This document shows positions 21,198 through 30,240 of a stretch of DNA of 44,000 bases, one piece after another. Position 1 is the first letter of the stretch. Every line of letters starts with the position of its first letter. The translations under genes were made by a program, and so were the position numbers. A model generated the notes under the pieces. It worked only from the letters and a program-made list of their open reading frames with translations, did not search any database and was not told the DNA's origin. Source of the DNA: an uncultured Opitutales bacterium (GTDB lineage: Bacteria; Verrucomicrobiota; Verrucomicrobiia; Opitutales; Intestinicryptomonadaceae); the NCBI GenBank assembly GCA_944389195.1, contig CALXLM010000029.1:1-44000 (forward strand), written 5' to 3'.

Positions 21198-21650
21198 ATG
21201 GCTAATGGTGAATATGAAGAAATTTTGAAGGCGTATGCTCCGCGCCGGGAAAATCTTGTGACGGCGTTTCAAGATATTCAGGAAAAGGAAGGCTACATAT
21301 CGGAAGGGGCGCTTGCGGCTGCTGCGGAGTACTTTTCGGTTTCGAAGGCCGACGCTTATTCGGTTGTGAGTTTCTACGCGCAGTTCAAGTTTAAAAGGCC
21401 CGGAAAACATACCATAAAGGTATGCAAAGGAACGGCATGCCATGTCAGGGGTTCCGGTTCTCTGCTTGCCGCGCTTGAGGAGAGGCTTGGAATAAAGGAG
21501 GGCGAAACTACGCCGGACGGTTTGATAAGCCTCGAACGTGTGGCGTGTCTTGGTGCCTGCGCTTTGGCGCCTGCAATAGTTGTGGACGACAAAGTGCACG
21601 CCCGCATAACTTTGGCGCAACTTGAAAAAATCTTGAAAGGCTTGCAATAA
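21198..21650 (+). CDS. NuoE/HydC-like [2Fe-2S] subunit of an electron-transfer complex
   Basis: This 150-residue thioredoxin-fold iron-sulfur protein matches the 24-kDa (NuoE) family, called HydC or HymA in bifurcating hydrogenases. The N-terminal helical bundle is at about 5-65. The four cluster ligands are C76 and C81 (CKGTACHVRG) and C117 and C121 (CLGAC). It would pass electrons to or from the NuoF-like partner encoded next. The gap to that gene is one base, so translation is tightly coupled. There is no membrane arm of complex I in the window, so the complex is expected to be soluble. Confidence 0.92.
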   Translation: MANGEYEEILKAYAPRRENLVTAFQDIQEKEGYISEGALAAAAEYFSVSKADAYSVVSFYAQFKFKRPGKHTIKVCKGTACHVRGSGSLLAALEERLGIKEGETTPDGLISLERVACLGACALAPAIVVDDKVHARITLAQLEKILKGLQ

Positions 21651-21651
21651 C

Positions 21652-23508
21652 ATGGAGATTTTAAAATCGCAAAGGGAGTCTGCGCAAAAGGCGTGGGACG
21701 ATTTTTCCGACGCCGGCAAAGCGCGCGTTCTTGTCGGGGCGGCGACTTGCGGACGCGCCGCGGGAGCTCTCGACGTCATGGAGGAGTTTAAAAAGGAGCT
21801 GTCTGCCGCGGGCTTGTCTGACAAGGTCGAAGTTGTGGAGACGGCGTGCATAGGATTATGCTATGCCGAGCCGCTTGTAGAAATAAGGGCGGCGGGTATT
21901 CCGCCGGTTTTATATTCGAATGTTCATCCGAAAGACGTTTCGGAGCTGGTCAAAAGCCATATCATGGCTGGGAAGGCCGTTGTCGGGAAAGCCGAAGCGG
22001 TGATGGTCGAAAGCCCGTACGAAGGCATAGTCCCGTTTAAAAAGCATCCGATGATGGAGCTGCAAAAAAGGATAGTTTTAAGGAATTGCGGCGTCATAAA
22101 CCCGTCTAGTTTTGAACACTATCTGGCGCGCGGCGGATACAAAGGGCTTGAGCGTGCTTTTTCAATGACGCCCGAAGACGTCATTGAAGAGATGAAGAAA
22201 AGCGGGCTTCGCGGGCGCGGCGGCGCCGGTTTCCCGACCGGAATGAAATGGGGTTTTGCGCGGGCGTCGAAATCCGACGAAAAGTACATAATATGCAACG
22301 CCGACGAGGGCGATCCGGGCGCGTTTATGGACAGGTCGGTTCTCGAGGGCGATCCGCACAGCGTCATAGAGGGGCTGATGATAGCCGGATACGCGATAGG
22401 AGCGCAGCACGCCTACATATATGTAAGGAGCGAATATCCGTTGGCTATCGAGCGTTTGAGAACCGCCATAAAGCAGGCCGAGGAAGCCGGGCTTTTAAAG
22501 CGCAAGCTTGAAAACGGTTTTGAATTTGAGATAAAAATCAAAAAGGGGTCCGGGGCGTTCGTATGCGGGGAGGAGACCTCGCTTATGGCGAGCATAGAAG
22601 GCGTGAGGGCAATGCCGCGCCCGAAACCGCCGTTTCCGGCAAACAGCGGCCTTTTCAAGAAGCCAACAAACATAAACAATGTCGAAACACTTGCGGCGGT
22701 AAGTTCTATCATGCGCGACGGCGCCGAAAGCTATGCGGCTTTAGGTTCGGAGAAAAGCAAGGGGACGAAGACGTTTTCGCTTGCCGGGAAAATAGTGCGC
22801 ACGGGTTTGATAGAGGTCGAGCTCGGCATAAAGCTTGGCGACATCATAAACAAAATAGGAGGAGGCTGTCCGGACGGCAAAAAATTCAAGGCGGTCCAGA
22901 CGGGGGGGCCGTCGGGAGGGTGCCTTACAAGCCAGCATTTTGATCTGCCCGTAGATTATGAAAATCTCGGCGCGGTGGGATCCATTGTAGGCTCCGGGGG
23001 AATGGTCGTCATGAACGAGGATTCCTGCATGGTCGAGGTTGCAAAATATTTTGTCAACTTTACCGAGAACGAATCGTGCGGCAAATGTGTCCCGTGCAGA
23101 ATGGGGACTCAGCACGTTCATATGATACTTGAAAAAATAACCTCCGGCAAGGGGGAGCTTGAGGATATAGAGCGCCTTAAAAAGATAGCGTTTACCATGA
23201 AGCAGTCGTCGCTGTGCGGCCTCGGGCAGACGGCGCCGAATCCGATTCTGACTACGCTGCGGTATTTCGAGGACGAATACATGGCCCACATAAAGGAGAA
23301 GCGCTGTCCGGCGCTCGTTTGTCCCGGGCTCGTGACGTTTAGGGTTGACGCCGAAAAATGCACGGGCTGCACGCTTTGCGAACGGGCGTGTCCGACCGGG
23401 GCTATTTCCGGAGGGCCAAAAAAGCCGCACGTTATAGATGGGGAAAAATGCATATCGTGCGGGGCGTGTTTCCAAACCTGCAAATTCGGGGCAATTTCAA
23501 GGGAATAA
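21652..23508 (+). CDS. NuoF/HydB-like NADH-binding flavoprotein with terminal ferredoxin domain
   Basis: This 618-residue protein has three parts, as in HydB of bifurcating hydrogenases. An N-terminal thioredoxin-like [2Fe-2S] domain (about 25-105) has C33, C66 and C70. The NADH/FMN domain of NuoF contains GLRGRGGAGFPTGMKW (186-201), NADEGDPGAFMDR (217-228) and a FMN-binding GAFVCGEETSL segment. The C476-x2-C479-x2-C482 and C522 set holds a [4Fe-4S] cluster. A C-terminal 2x[4Fe-4S] ferredoxin domain has C570/573/576/580 and C600/603/606/610. Complex I NuoF lacks the added N- and C-terminal domains, which places this with the HydB/soluble group. Expected role: two-electron exchange with NAD(H) at FMN, possibly the bifurcating site. 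The next gene starts six bases after the stop. Confidence 0.92.
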   Translation: MEILKSQRESAQKAWDDFSDAGKARVLVGAATCGRAAGALDVMEEFKKELSAAGLSDKVEVVETACIGLCYAEPLVEIRAAGIPPVLYSNVHPKDVSELVKSHIMAGKAVVGKAEAVMVESPYEGIVPFKKHPMMELQKRIVLRNCGVINPSSFEHYLARGGYKGLERAFSMTPEDVIEEMKKSGLRGRGGAGFPTGMKWGFARASKSDEKYIICNADEGDPGAFMDRSVLEGDPHSVIEGLMIAGYAIGAQHAYIYVRSEYPLAIERLRTAIKQAEEAGLLKRKLENGFEFEIKIKKGSGAFVCGEETSLMASIEGVRAMPRPKPPFPANSGLFKKPTNINNVETLAAVSSIMRDGAESYAALGSEKSKGTKTFSLAGKIVRTGLIEVELGIKLGDIINKIGGGCPDGKKFKAVQTGGPSGGCLTSQHFDLPVDYENLGAVGSIVGSGGMVVMNEDSCMVEVAKYFVNFTENESCGKCVPCRMGTQHVHMILEKITSGKGELEDIERLKKIAFTMKQSSLCGLGQTAPNPILTTLRYFEDEYMAHIKEKRCPALVCPGLVTFRVDAEKCTGCTLCERACPTGAISGGPKKPHVIDGEKCISCGACFQTCKFGAISRE

Positions 23509-23514
23509 TTTATT

Positions 23515-25953
23515 ATGAGCACTTTCAAACTTACCATAGACGGAAAGGTTGTCGAGGCGCAACCGGGAATGACCGTTTTACAGGCGGCTAAAAGCGCGGG
23601 GATATTCATACCGTCGCTTTGCGCGCACGACGAGCTTTCGCCTTACGGGGCGTGCCGCCTTTGCGTCGTCGAAATAGACGGGGTTCGCGGAACGCCGACG
23701 TCCTGTACGACTCCCGCCGCCGAGGGAATGGTCGTGCGCACGAACACCGACCAGCTCCAGCTTCAAAGGCGGCGCACGATAGAGCTGATGATGAGCGGGC
23801 ATCCGTCGCCGTGTTTTTCGTGCGACTCTCGCGCCGACTGCGAGGTTGAGAAATCTCAGCCCACGCGCGCCGGCCACGCGACCCGCTGCGGCACATGTTC
23901 AAATCGGCCCGGCTGCGAGCTGCGCGAAGTGGCCATGGGAAACTTTACCCGCGATATCGGGCTGCCCCTCATTTACGACGAATCCAAGGTGGAGCGCAAC
24001 GACCCGTTCATCGACAAAGACTACAATCTTTGCATTCTTTGCGGAAGATGTTTCAGGGTTTGCGAAAAAGTCCACGGCAAGCCGGCAATCAGCATAGCCA
24101 ACCGCGGCAAAAAGGCCAAAATATCGTCCGAGTTTGAAAAGGCGTGGAGCGCGGAGGAATGCAAATTCTGCGGGGCGTGCGTGGACGAGTGCCCGACGGG
24201 CGCGCTTACCGACCGTTGGGGAAAATGGTTCGGAAAACCCGACAAAATATCCGAAACCATATGCGCGATATGCCCGAAACATTGCCGCGTGGCGGTAAAA
24301 ATAAAGGACGGAAGGATAGTTTCGGCAAAGTCGGTGTCTCTTAAAAGAGAGGACGCCCTGTGCGCACTCGGACGTTTCGGGATTCCGCAAATAATGAACT
24401 CGCGCTCCCGCCTTTTGAGGGCGCAGATGCGGAAAGAGGGCGAGCTTGTGCCGGTGTCGGGTCCGGAGATAATCAAGAGGTTCATAGAAATATGCCGCAG
24501 CGCCGAGGGAAAGATTCTCGTGACGGAACACACGGGCGGCTTTTACGAGTCGCGCAAGGGCATAAGGGCCTTAGCCGACCGTTTTGGCGCAAAGCTGGTA
24601 AAGTTGTCGAACGACAGCGACGGATTGGACGAAGAGACAAAAAGGGAGATAGCGGAAGGAAAATTCGAAGCGGCGTTTATAGTGGGTTCCTATCTCGACG
24701 AGTCTCTGGCCTCGAAGATTCCGCATTTGATAATAGCCGACTTCATGAAAACGCCCGAACAGGAATCGGCCGAGCTTGTGATTCCCTTCAGCATATTCGG
24801 GGAGACCGCCGGAACGTTTGCGTCTTCAGGCGGCGAAAAGATAATGTCGGCGGCGGCGGTCGCTTCGCGTTCCGACCAGAGGCCCTTAAGCGGTTTTCTT
24901 TCTGAAGTTTGCAGAGAGTGCGGCGTTGACGTCAAGGCTTTCGATTTCAAGCTGGAGGGCCTGCCGGCGGGATTTAAAGATCCTGCCGAGGACAAGCGCA
25001 ACATGCCCGAAAGGTTTCTCGGGCACTTTTTGGCCGATTTCGTTCCCGATTTGGAAATGCTTGGGTTGCGCGCGTCGCCGCATAAAAAGGCGGCAAAGAT
25101 GGCGGATTTCGACGCTGGATTTGAAATTCTTGAAAAGCGCAGCGTGGCGCCGAATTTTCACGAGGTGACCGTAAAGGCGCCGGATATGGCGAAATTCGTG
25201 CAACCGGGGCAGTTTGCAATACTTATGGCAAACGCCGACAGCGAAAGGTCGCCGTTTACAATTATAGATTGGGACGCCGAAGCCGGCTGGGTGAAATTCA
25301 TATTGGAGGAGGTCGGACGTTCGAGCGCCGAAATAGGCGCGCTCAAAAAGGGCGACAGGCTCGCCGTCGTCAGCGGGCCTTTGGGGACGCCGGTAAATCT
25401 CGACGCGTTTGCGAAGGGTTCAAAGGCATTGCTGCTTGGCGGGTGCTACGGCATAGGGGCCATTTATCCCATAGCCAGGGCGCTTTCGGAGCGCGGCGTG
25501 GAGGTGACATGCGCCATAGAGGCGTCGTCGGCATACATGCTCTATTTTAAGGACGAGTTGAAATCGGTTTCGAAGAAGCTGGTTGTAAGAACCCGCGATG
25601 GCAGCGAAGGCGAAAAGGGCGGATGCAGGGACGTGCTGAAGGAAAGCGGCAAAGATTACGACTCCATCGTCGCGATAGGCTGCGTTTTCATGATGAAGCA
25701 GTGCGCCCAGGCCGCGCCCAAAGACGCAAAGCATGCGCTGTGCGCGCTCAATCCGATTATGGTTGACGGAACCGGCATGTGCGGGGCATGCCGCGTGAGC
25801 GTGGGGGGCGAAACAAAGTTTGCGTGCGTGGACGGCCCGTTCTTCCCGCTGCTTGACGTTGACTTTGCGGAGCTTGGCAAGCGACGCACGGCCTATAAAC
25901 TTTTGGAAATAGAGGCAATGCCGCGCCATATCGGCGGCAAATGCCACTCTTGA
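23515..25953 (+). CDS. Fusion of NuoG/HydA-like iron-sulfur protein with NfnA-like flavoprotein
   Basis: This 812-residue protein joins two families. Residues 1-70 are a [2Fe-2S] ferredoxin domain (C36, C47, C50, C64). Residues 96-134 hold two successive H-x3-C-x2-C-x5-C motifs (H96/C100/C103/C109 and H121/C125/C128/C134). Then come two [4Fe-4S] ferredoxin motifs (C173/176/179/183 and C216/219/222/226) and a molybdopterin-oxidoreductase-type cluster motif (C250/C253/C257/C283). Residues about 300-520 look like a shortened molybdopterin-type domain, as in NuoG. No hydrogenase H-cluster motifs are present. From about 535 the protein is NfnA/PyrK-like: an FAD site around RSPFT (578-582), a nucleotide-binding GGCYGIGAIYPIARAL (642-657) and a [2Fe-2S] motif with C743, C756, C759 and C771 (GTGMCGACRVSVGG). 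Such a protein would wire the NADH module directly to the NADP module. The frame is continuous, with no stop or shift. Confidence 0.85.
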   Translation: MSTFKLTIDGKVVEAQPGMTVLQAAKSAGIFIPSLCAHDELSPYGACRLCVVEIDGVRGTPTSCTTPAAEGMVVRTNTDQLQLQRRRTIELMMSGHPSPCFSCDSRADCEVEKSQPTRAGHATRCGTCSNRPGCELREVAMGNFTRDIGLPLIYDESKVERNDPFIDKDYNLCILCGRCFRVCEKVHGKPAISIANRGKKAKISSEFEKAWSAEECKFCGACVDECPTGALTDRWGKWFGKPDKISETICAICPKHCRVAVKIKDGRIVSAKSVSLKREDALCALGRFGIPQIMNSRSRLLRAQMRKEGELVPVSGPEIIKRFIEICRSAEGKILVTEHTGGFYESRKGIRALADRFGAKLVKLSNDSDGLDEETKREIAEGKFEAAFIVGSYLDESLASKIPHLIIADFMKTPEQESAELVIPFSIFGETAGTFASSGGEKIMSAAAVASRSDQRPLSGFLSEVCRECGVDVKAFDFKLEGLPAGFKDPAEDKRNMPERFLGHFLADFVPDLEMLGLRASPHKKAAKMADFDAGFEILEKRSVAPNFHEVTVKAPDMAKFVQPGQFAILMANADSERSPFTIIDWDAEAGWVKFILEEVGRSSAEIGALKKGDRLAVVSGPLGTPVNLDAFAKGSKALLLGGCYGIGAIYPIARALSERGVEVTCAIEASSAYMLYFKDELKSVSKKLVVRTRDGSEGEKGGCRDVLKESGKDYDSIVAIGCVFMMKQCAQAAPKDAKHALCALNPIMVDGTGMCGACRVSVGGETKFACVDGPFFPLLDVDFAELGKRRTAYKLLEIEAMPRHIGGKCHS

Positions 25954-25963
25954 GGATTAGAAA

Positions 25964-27412
25964 ATGGCAGAAGAAAAACCGAGAAAACTTAAGGCGTCGG
26001 GACTTCCGCGCCTAAAAATGCCCGAACAGGATCCTATCCGCAGGGCCACGAATTTTGAAGAGGTGCCCTACGGCGTGTCGCTTCAAATGGCGATGGACGA
26101 GGCCAGCCGCTGTCTGCAATGTCCGAAACCGCGCTGCATTGCGGCGTGTCCGGTGAACATACGCATACCGGAATTTATAGCCGAAATAGCCAAGGGCGAC
26201 CCGAAATCGGCGGCGATCAAACTTAAGAAGCAGACGGCGCTTCCGGCCGTTTGCGGCAGGGTTTGCCCGCAGGAAAGCCAGTGCGAGGGAAGCTGCGTTT
26301 TGGGTTTGAGGGGAGATCCGGTCGCGATAGGGACTTTGGAGCGCTTTTCGGCCGACTATGTGAGGCTTAACAATCTCGAGGAACTTCCCGAGAAGGCGGC
26401 GCCTACCGGCAAAAGGGTCGCGATTATCGGTTGCGGGCCCGCCGGCATCACCGCCGCCGCCGATTTGGCGATTTCCGGGCACGAAGTCGAAATTTTCGAA
26501 GCTCTCCACCTTCCCGGCGGAGTGCTTATGTACGGGATACCCCAATTCCGCCTGCCGAAGGAGATTGTGGTGCACGAAGTCGAATCGCTCAAGAAACTCG
26601 GCGTGAAGATACACCTAAACTACTTGGTGGGAAAGATGCGGACGGTCGATACTCTCCTTTCGGGCGGATTCGACGCAATTTTCATAGGTTCGGGCGCGGG
26701 GCTCCCCATATTTTTGGGCATTCCGGGCGAAAACAGCGTGGGGGTTTTTTCGGCTAACGAATTTTTGACGCGCTTTAATCTCATGAAAGCCTACGATTTT
26801 CCAAACCACGGCACGACGCCCATCAATGCGCGGCATATTGTCACCGTGGGAGGCGGAAACGTAGCTATGGACTCGTCGAGAACGGCCCTTAGAATAGGCG
26901 CGAAATCAACGCTCGTTTACAGGCGCGCGCGCGAACAGATGCCCGCCCGCGCAGAGGAAGTCCACCATGCCGAACAGGAGGGCGTAAACTTTCAGATGCT
27001 TACAAACCCCAAACGGGTGATAGCCGATGAAAACGGGAAAATAACGGCGGTTGAGTGTGTGAAAATGGAACTCGGAGAACCCGACGCTTCCGGCAGGCGC
27101 AGCGTTTCGGAAATACCGGGAAGCGAATTCCAAATTCCGTGCGACGCCCTCGTGGTGGCGATAGGAAACAGGCCGAATCCGCTTTTGCCGATGACTTGCG
27201 CATCGTTGAAGACTACCAAAAAGGGAACCATCGAGGTGGATCCGGAAACATTGCAGACGTCGATTCCGCAGGTGTTTGCCGGAGGCGACGTCGTCAGCGG
27301 CGCGGCTACCGTAATAAGCGCAATGGGGCAGGCTAAGATAGCCGCGCGCAGCATAAACAAATTCCTCAGGGGCGAACCTCTAAAAGATGAGACCGTGCCT
27401 GCTTCTGTCTAA
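25964..27412 (+). CDS. NfnB-like NADP(H)-dependent flavoprotein (GltD family)
   Basis: This 482-residue protein is like the large subunit of NADH-dependent ferredoxin:NADP oxidoreductase, and like the small subunit of glutamate synthase. Two [4Fe-4S] sites are at the N-terminus (C50/C53/C58/C62 and C97/C101/C107/C111). An FAD motif IIGCGPAGITAAADLA starts at 154 and an NADP motif VGGGNVAMDSSRTALR starts at 295, followed by VYRRAREQMPA. The closing FAD segment VFAGGDVVSGAATV is intact. In Nfn, the FAD here is the bifurcating flavin. A GltD role would need the large glutamate synthase subunit, which is absent, and the NfnA half is fused to the gene just upstream (10-base gap). The C-terminus overlaps surE by 26 bases. 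Confidence 0.87.
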   Translation: MAEEKPRKLKASGLPRLKMPEQDPIRRATNFEEVPYGVSLQMAMDEASRCLQCPKPRCIAACPVNIRIPEFIAEIAKGDPKSAAIKLKKQTALPAVCGRVCPQESQCEGSCVLGLRGDPVAIGTLERFSADYVRLNNLEELPEKAAPTGKRVAIIGCGPAGITAAADLAISGHEVEIFEALHLPGGVLMYGIPQFRLPKEIVVHEVESLKKLGVKIHLNYLVGKMRTVDTLLSGGFDAIFIGSGAGLPIFLGIPGENSVGVFSANEFLTRFNLMKAYDFPNHGTTPINARHIVTVGGGNVAMDSSRTALRIGAKSTLVYRRAREQMPARAEEVHHAEQEGVNFQMLTNPKRVIADENGKITAVECVKMELGEPDASGRRSVSEIPGSEFQIPCDALVVAIGNRPNPLLPMTCASLKTTKKGTIEVDPETLQTSIPQVFAGGDVVSGAATVISAMGQAKIAARSINKFLRGEPLKDETVPASV

Positions 27413-28413: not shown

Positions 28414-30240
28414 ATGAAAAAAAATACGAAAAAAACGGCTTCTAAAAAATCCGAGCCCGCAAAGCTGATGAAGGGCACGGACGTAGTCGTTAGATGTCTC
28501 GAGAACGAGGGCGTGGATACGATATTCGCGTATCCCGGAGGATCGATTATCGACATGCACAACGCCCTTACGCGCACGGATAAAATCAGGGTAATTCTTC
28601 CCCGCCACGAACAGGGAGGCGGATTTATGGCGCAAGGATATGCGCGCTCCACAGGGAAAGTAGGCGTGTGCATGGCCACGAGCGGCCCCGGCGCGATGAA
28701 CCTGCTTACGGCGATATCAGACGCCTATATGGACAGCGTTCCGATTGTCGCAATAACCGGACAGGTCTTTCAGTCTCTGATAGGGAAAAGCGCCTTTCAG
28801 GAAACCGACGTTTTCGGAATGACGCTGCCTGTCGTAAAACACAGCTATTTGGTTCTCGACGCAAACAACCTGCCGCAGACGATAAAAGAGGCGTTTATAA
28901 TAGCCAAAACCGGAAGGCCCGGTCCCGTTTTGATAGACATTCCCAAAGACGTCCAACAGCAGATGGTGTCGCCGAATTTCGACGCCAAGCCGGAGCTGCC
29001 CGGCTTGCAGGTTCCGCCGCGCGCCGACGACGAGAGCCTTTTGAAAATACTTTCGCTGATATCGGCGTCTAAAAAGCCCGTAATTTATGCTGGGGGCGGA
29101 ATAATCTCTGCCGACGCCTCGAAAGAGCTCGACGCGTTCTCGAAATATTTTGGCATACCCGTGGCAAACACGCTTATGGGCATAGGCTCAGTTGACCCGC
29201 TTGAGGAGAAAAACCTCTATTGGTTCGGCATGCACGGAACGTTTGCCGGCAACAGCGCTGTGCTCAACTCCGACCTCTTGCTGGCTTTCGGCACGCGGTT
29301 TAGCGACCGCATAACGGGCGCGGTTTCGAAATTCGCCCCGAAGGCGAAAGTGGTCCATCTCGACATCGACTTTGCCGAGCAAAACAAAAACATAAAAGTT
29401 TTTTACGGAGTCCACAGCGAGGTCAAATACGCCTTAAAACGGCTCTTGGAACTCGCCAAAGAGCGCAAAACTCCGAAACCGGACCTGACAGAATGGCTCG
29501 ACAGCGTCAAGTGCTGGAAACGCCGGTATAAATATCCGTTTTCGTACAGGCAGCGCAAAAACCTGACCGCCCAAGAGGCGATATCGGCTTTGTACAAAGA
29601 AAGCGGCGGCAGGGTTGTTGTGACCACGGGCGTCGGACAGCACCAGATGTGGACCCCGCAAAACTTCGTGTTTTCAAAGCCGCGCCAATTCATAAGTTCG
29701 CTCGGCGCCGGCACGATGGGCTTTGGGCTTCCCGCGGCGATAGGGGTTAAGATTGCGCGCCCAAAGGAAAAGGTTGTCGATATCGACGGCGACGGCTCGT
29801 TTCAGATGAACATTCAGGAGATGGCGACCGCGGTGGCGGAAAACGTCCCCGTGAAAGTTATGCTTTTAAACAACCAATTCCTCGGCATGGTGATGCAGTG
29901 GGAAGATATGATGTACGGCGGCACCCGCGGAAATACCAACCTTTCTCTCGATCCCAATAATATGGGGGGGCCCGAAAACCTTGGCGCGATATACCCCGAC
30001 TATTGCAAAATCGCCGGCGGGTATGGCTGGGAAAGCCGCCGCGTTTCGAGGCGAGAGGAGCTACCCGGGGCGGTGCGCGAAATGCTCGCCTCTTCAAAGC
30101 CCTATTTGCTCGAGGTTGTGATCGAACACGACGAGCACGTCTTGCCGTTTATTCCGCCGGGAAAATCGGCGCAGGACATCATAGTCGAATGTTCTTCGTG
30201 CCCGAAATTCGGGGAGTGCGAGATAGCCAAACACAAATAA
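28414..30240 (+). CDS. ilvB: Acetolactate synthase large subunit (thiamine diphosphate enzyme)
   Basis: This enzyme condenses two pyruvates to acetolactate, or pyruvate with 2-oxobutyrate, in branched-chain amino acid synthesis. The 608-residue protein has the N-terminal pyrimidine-binding domain with the catalytic glutamate E66 in [16 protein letters not shown], a central domain, and the ThDP motif [15 protein letters not shown] followed by [14 protein letters not shown], which matches acetolactate synthases rather than pyruvate decarboxylases. No regulatory small subunit (ilvN) follows. The C-terminus has an added tail with Cys at 593, 596 and 602 ([10 protein letters not shown]), which is unusual for the family. 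The Shine-Dalgarno sequence is weak. The cyclophilin gene follows after 14 bases. Confidence 0.92.

Follow-up and report, generated by a model that had tools for sequence, protein, structure and literature searches.

The electron-bifurcating enzymes of the Bfu family, which are HydABC-like (PMC9304861), combine a NuoE/NuoF pair of the BfuC/BfuB kind with a NuoG-like chain, BfuA, whose clusters are given as A1-A5 in the available part of the Bfu review (PMC9304861). For the NiFe-HydABCSL enzyme, the accessible text of PMC8880783 describes a path FMN-B1-A1-A2-A3-S1-[NiFe], which takes one arm of a Y, with A4/A5 as the third arm; in HydABC, two protomers are connected through the His-ligated cluster, at a distance of 8.8-9.0 angstrom (PMC9499530). 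The Stn transhydrogenase (StnABC; PMC10482914, available part) has NuoE/NuoF-like subunits together with NuoG-like and GltD-like parts, which are joined in StnC in one chain of 1172 aa; the same part of that paper contains no description of an NfnS part of StnC. Another related system is NfnSL/NfnAB, with solved structures for both of its chains, and the available text of the Nfn review mentions neither NuoG nor NuoF. AadN, considered as a relative, was set aside because it is a fused Nfn, and NuoG does not occur in the available part of its paper (PMC9973337).

The window analyzed here is a stretch of 44,000 nucleotides from an uncultured Opitutales bacterium. Between 21198 and 27412 it carries an operon in which a Bfu-type NuoE/NuoF pair is followed by a NuoG-like chain bearing an NfnS-like domain and by NfnL as a gene of its own:

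21198..21650, + strand: NuoE-like (BfuC-like) gene, thioredoxin-like [2Fe-2S] protein (Pfam PF01257, NCBIfam NuoE models)
21652..23508, + strand: NuoF-like gene, Bfu/HydB kind, two Fer4 sites at its C-terminus (Pfam; match to 7t2r_B)
23515..25953, + strand: fusion protein ORF, 812 aa, with a NuoG-like N-terminal part, a degenerate molybdopterin-enzyme-like middle and an NfnS-like C-terminal domain
25964..27412, + strand: NfnL/GltD-like gene (495 bits to 4ylf_B and 477 bits to 5jca_L, solved NfnB/NfnL chains)

The NuoE and NuoF domains, the match of NuoF to HydB of the NiFe bifurcating hydrogenase (7t2r_B; 770 bits, residues 23-617, the B2 His/Cys stretch among them) and its H546-x5-C552-x4-C557 place the pair, by sequence, in the Bfu core. 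As in that family, the pair lies beside a NuoG-like chain; unlike it, the fusion protein has a further site beyond A1-A5, carries the NfnS-like domain in-chain and is accompanied by a separate NfnL. NuoF residues 459-557 (22840-23325) cover a site that in a relative was assigned as [2Fe-2S] in one structure and as zinc in another, and the window's NuoF keeps this His/Cys stretch. The system does not belong with Stn, in which the GltD-like and NuoG-like parts form one chain, whereas here NfnL is a separate gene and the fusion bears an NfnS-like domain; moreover, the FAD-near cluster has Lys K170 in StnC (PMC10482914, available part), whereas the window's NfnL keeps the corresponding Glu, E126 of LERF, as well as arginine R196 of FRLPK. 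By sequence, NfnS-like and NfnL-like chains with their cofactor residues are present; unlike in NfnSL/NfnAB, NfnS follows a NuoG-like part in the same chain. The loci L033-L036 share the order NuoE-NuoF-fusion-NfnL in 4/4; NfnL is cut in L037, and L038 ends inside the fusion. The operon may hold two flavin bifurcation sites, and its content points to flavin sites of the Bfu and Nfn types in a combination that would be undescribed.

Within the fusion protein the following sites were recognized:

23620..23706, + strand: [2Fe-2S] ligands C36, C47, C50 and C64 (Fer2_4 match; invariant in 17/17 homologues)
23800..23841, + strand: motif 1, H96-C100-C103-C109, N5-type His-Cys3 site (PF10588 match and single-motif HMM; ligands in 17/17)
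23842..23916, + strand: insert (residues 110-134) with motif 2, C125-C128-C134 (cysteines in 17/17; gap in 6/6 single-motif homologues)
23875-23916, + strand: full motif 2 pattern, H121/C125/C128/C134 (H121 codon 23875-23877, not conserved)
24031..24192, + strand: two-cluster ferredoxin-like domain, C173 to C226 (PF22117 Fer4_Nqo3; cysteines invariant in 17/17)
24262..24363, + strand: Fe4S4 site of the molybdopterin-enzyme kind, C250, C253, C257 and C283 (PF04879; cysteines invariant in 17/17)
25120..25929, + strand: NfnS-like FAD/NAD domain (match of residues 536-798 to 5jca_S, 202 bits)

PF04879 scored 22.6 bits on the fusion, just below the Pfam cut-off of 22.7, and the N5 domain is partial, PF10588 covering residues 85-111 (Pfam). 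Domain and structure-sequence matches identify the C-terminal domain as NfnS/DHODB-like, with D751, C756, C759 and C771 as its likely [2Fe-2S] ligands.

The earlier note had described two consecutive His-Cys3 motifs, and both are present, H96/C100/C103/C109 at 23800-23841 and H121/C125/C128/C134 at 23875-23916. Of all open stretches in the six frames of the window that reach 60 aa or more, H-x3-C-x2-C-x5-C occurs at these two places only; when the fusion protein was shuffled 200,000 times, one or more matches arose in 0.09% of the shuffles and two in none. Conservation was assessed on a 17-row alignment, from which L033-L037 were left out as copies of L004, L005, L008, L007 and L009, and to which six single-motif ORFs were added. 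H96, C100, C103, C109, C125, C128 and C134 are identical in 17/17 distinct homologues, so the motif pair is not due to chance. The residues at position 121, instead, are H, N, H, S, I, S, V, S, S, I, A, V, A, A, I, V, T across the 17 sequences, so that the full double pattern, second His included, is confined to the window protein and L004, and motif 2 has to be read as a site of three cysteines rather than as another His-Cys3 site. The two-motif pattern is real in the window protein, but a second His-Cys3 motif is not supported, since its His is kept in 2/17 only. In 6/6 single-motif homologues the one motif pairs with motif 1, and motif 2 faces a gap; motif 1, matched by PF10588 in 17/17 members, is the standard N5-type site of NuoG/HydA/FdhF proteins, whereas motif 2 does not belong to the N5 type with a conserved His. 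The earlier suggestion of an added site is borne out by this gap and by the recurrence of an extra site, with four cysteines, in 10/10 proteins of a related group; that the second motif replaces the first is not supported, all four motif 1 ligands being invariant in 17/17. The remaining invariant cysteines of residues 60-240 fall in recognized cluster sets, thus leaving no spare invariant cysteine nearby as a fourth ligand.

The two motifs were also compared by an HMM built from 32 distinct single-motif fragments (32 of 39), scoring 42-residue pieces of equal size for both; this replaces an earlier comparison, in which the motif 2 pieces were scored without their left flank. Motif 1 scored 22.4-35.1 bits and motif 2 3.1-13.0 bits, with motif 1 ahead in 17/17. 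Most of the difference is carried by the left flank, since motif 1 was ahead in 11/17, nearly even, with the motif alone, and in 14/17 with the motif and right flank. Motif 1 and its left flank are shared with the N5 domain (PF10588) of NuoG/Nqo3 and with HydA at its His-ligated cluster; unlike the fusion, single-motif proteins are without the insert.

Spread was sampled within three phyla. The fusion occurs in 17/54 genomes, its own genome counted (in G011 it is split over two contig pieces), and was not seen in three genomes of the same genus, G003, G010 and G013; six related loci carry the name Opitutales or Verrucomicrobiota. A motif-region profile matched at E 1e-30 or better in 3/387 genomes drawn from the own phylum. 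One protein, L048, matches across both motifs among 296 genomes of Bacteroidota, the phylum of L039, and ten such proteins (L082-L091) were found among 100 relatives of the L048 genome, itself counted. The 68 distinct ORFs examined include 39 with one motif and six with none. Among further hits, one motif is present in L065-L076 (12/12) and in ten ORFs of L049-L062, where L052, L054, L055 and L060 are off-pattern; L093, FdhF-like as judged by eye, has one motif, and L092, Stn-like as judged by eye, has a C-x2-C-x-C-x6-C pattern as in 9bov_A. The single motif of L049, L050, L051, L053, L056, L057, L059 and L061 has its His two residues before the first Cys (N-H-x-C), not four, and these proteins are mostly short and HoxU-like. 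Among the plasmid matches listed (best 20 of 231, 40 of 83 and 30 of 50) the names were mostly FdhF, group A6 hydrogenase or none, and eight scans of viral_contigs gave five relatives, all through one FdhF-like query. Both motifs were found in no solved chain among the alignments listed (best 5 of 82, 5 of 72, 3 of 78 and 2 of 82); neither the insert nor an NfnS-NuoG fusion is described in the open-licence paper listings searched or in the passages available from them. Elsewhere in the window, a 608-aa ORF (28414-30240), acetolactate synthase-like when its sequence is judged by eye, ends in a tail (30190-30240) with C-x2-C-x5-C-E, like motif 2.

L082-L091 resemble the window family in having a second site in an insert of near-equal length directly after the His-Cys3 motif; they differ in having four insert cysteines instead of three, and GltD at the C-terminus. 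In 10/10 the cysteines stand at +4, +7, +13, +20, +30, +31 and +37 from the His, that is His-Cys3 plus four more, versus +4, +7, +13, +29, +32 and +38 in the window family; +29/+32/+38 and +30/+31/+37 cannot be matched without a gap. In the MAFFT alignment the +20 cysteine falls opposite a gap next to P116; counted from the His, the +20 residue is a proline in 17/17 of the window family, which, with three insert cysteines in 17/17, does not fall in the four-cysteine group. At L094:4090-11368 the four-cysteine L048 protein is encoded directly behind bzd-type benzoyl-CoA reductase genes, which pass the NCBIfam cut-offs for BzdN, BzdO and BzdQ; the window's NuoE and NuoF had no match in L094 (19 kb) or L095 (10.9 kb). 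BzdV, labeled “putative NADPH:ferredoxin oxidoreductase” in the available part of PMC5658619, is a candidate name for the L094 protein by gene position only, and is offered just as a lead. A further relative, L064, has a NuoG-like and a GltD-like part and a NuoF neighbor; it keeps the flanking domains and is without the His-Cys3 motif and the insert, so that at least one related protein can do without the His-cluster arm.

A tree of 56 rows, calculated with the insert region left out and with 28/39 of the single-motif ORFs and 1/6 of the ORFs without the pattern, has a branch with support 96/85 that separates the 17 three-cysteine rows, the 10 four-cysteine rows and L064 from the rest, long branches being flagged. 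A single origin of the three- and four-cysteine inserts is likely, because both groups, together with L064, lie on one side of this supported branch. The presence of the insert needs two changes on the tree, as for one gain and one loss; a clade of the two insert groups without L064 was not rejected, at a p-AU of 0.142, a value that does not support it either.

What the sequences show for motif 2 is an additional set of conserved cysteines next to the His-cluster; its metal, its fourth ligand and its place in an electron path are putative assignments from sequence. The reading that we favor, with somewhat better than even confidence, is that motif 1 is an ordinary His-Cys3 [4Fe-4S] site and that motif 2 is an added metal site behind it, most likely a second Fe-S cluster on C125/C128/C134, probably of the [4Fe-4S] type. 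Points against it are the presence of three cysteines only, the gap needed to match the insert cysteines of the two groups, the p-AU of 0.142 for these groups alone, the HMM preference residing mainly in the left flank, the lack of both motifs in L064, and the AlphaFold models: these reached a mean pLDDT of 46.7 (9 rows, residues 1-300) and 55.2 (12 rows, residues 1-240), with about 25-41 in the motif region of both, below 50 throughout. The version put forward in the earlier note, two complete His-Cys3 [4Fe-4S] sites produced by local duplication, appears very improbable: the offset between the motifs is exactly 25 residues in 17/17, and the window protein and L004 have the full pattern, but H121 is mostly replaced, the motifs agree at 6/18 residues in the window protein and 4/18 in L018, and the DNA at 23600-24100 shows no tandem repeat. 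Local duplication by itself, for which the same exact register speaks and the same low identity and missing repeat count against, is a possible origin of motif 2.

Motif 2 could also be a structural zinc site, formed by the three cysteines and another ligand, which would stabilize the insert with no redox role. A set of three cysteines with one variable position would also fit zinc, and a Cys3-His site of HydB was assigned to Zn in one structure and to [2Fe-2S] in another (PMC9499530; PMC8880783, in their available parts). The four cysteines of the related group's insert, and a C-x2-C-x5-C spacing equal to that of the neighboring cluster site, speak instead for a cluster, although each is compatible with zinc too, and we consider the zinc site unlikely. 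That the region holds one cluster only, with the seven residues shared or some cysteines spare for ligand swap or a disulfide, would explain why the candidate ligands are one below two full sets and why both motifs are lost together in L064; a complete His-Cys3 set and three more cysteines are nevertheless all invariant, and L082-L091 have eight candidate ligands, which makes this explanation improbable.

Motif 1 is the counterpart of N5 in complex I and of HydA's His-ligated cluster, and the His-cluster would correspond to A3 of the NiFe enzyme. Taken with the data on A4/A5, A3 and the protomer link, this would make motif 2 one added metal site on the His-cluster arm, placed at the tip of this arm of the Y-shaped cluster chain, while the chain to the NuoF flavin would stay as in relatives. 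The fourth ligand may be a non-cysteine residue, come from a partner subunit, or be missing; a three-cysteine cluster would have one distinct iron site, like the site-differentiated clusters of NfnL and StnC, for which the available texts report Glu (PMC9503767) and Lys (PMC10482914), respectively, as the non-cysteine ligand. The site might act as an added relay, or as a docking port for ferredoxin, NfnL or the neighboring protomer, the ferredoxin port being suggested by the bzd neighborhood of one relative and by the BzdV label. A more specific proposal, which we hold only tentatively and regard as doubtful, is that the insert is a single-origin second [4Fe-4S] module at the tip of the NuoG His-arm, which in Opitutales would have three cysteine ligands and serve as an electron port within a complex that combines two bifurcating systems, the Bfu NuoE/NuoF core and a complete NfnS/NfnL pair. 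According to PMC9499530, it is unknown what the Y-junction at the His-ligated cluster does; the proteins with three cysteines, those with four, and L064, which has neither site, represent a natural experiment on the role of the His-cluster arm.
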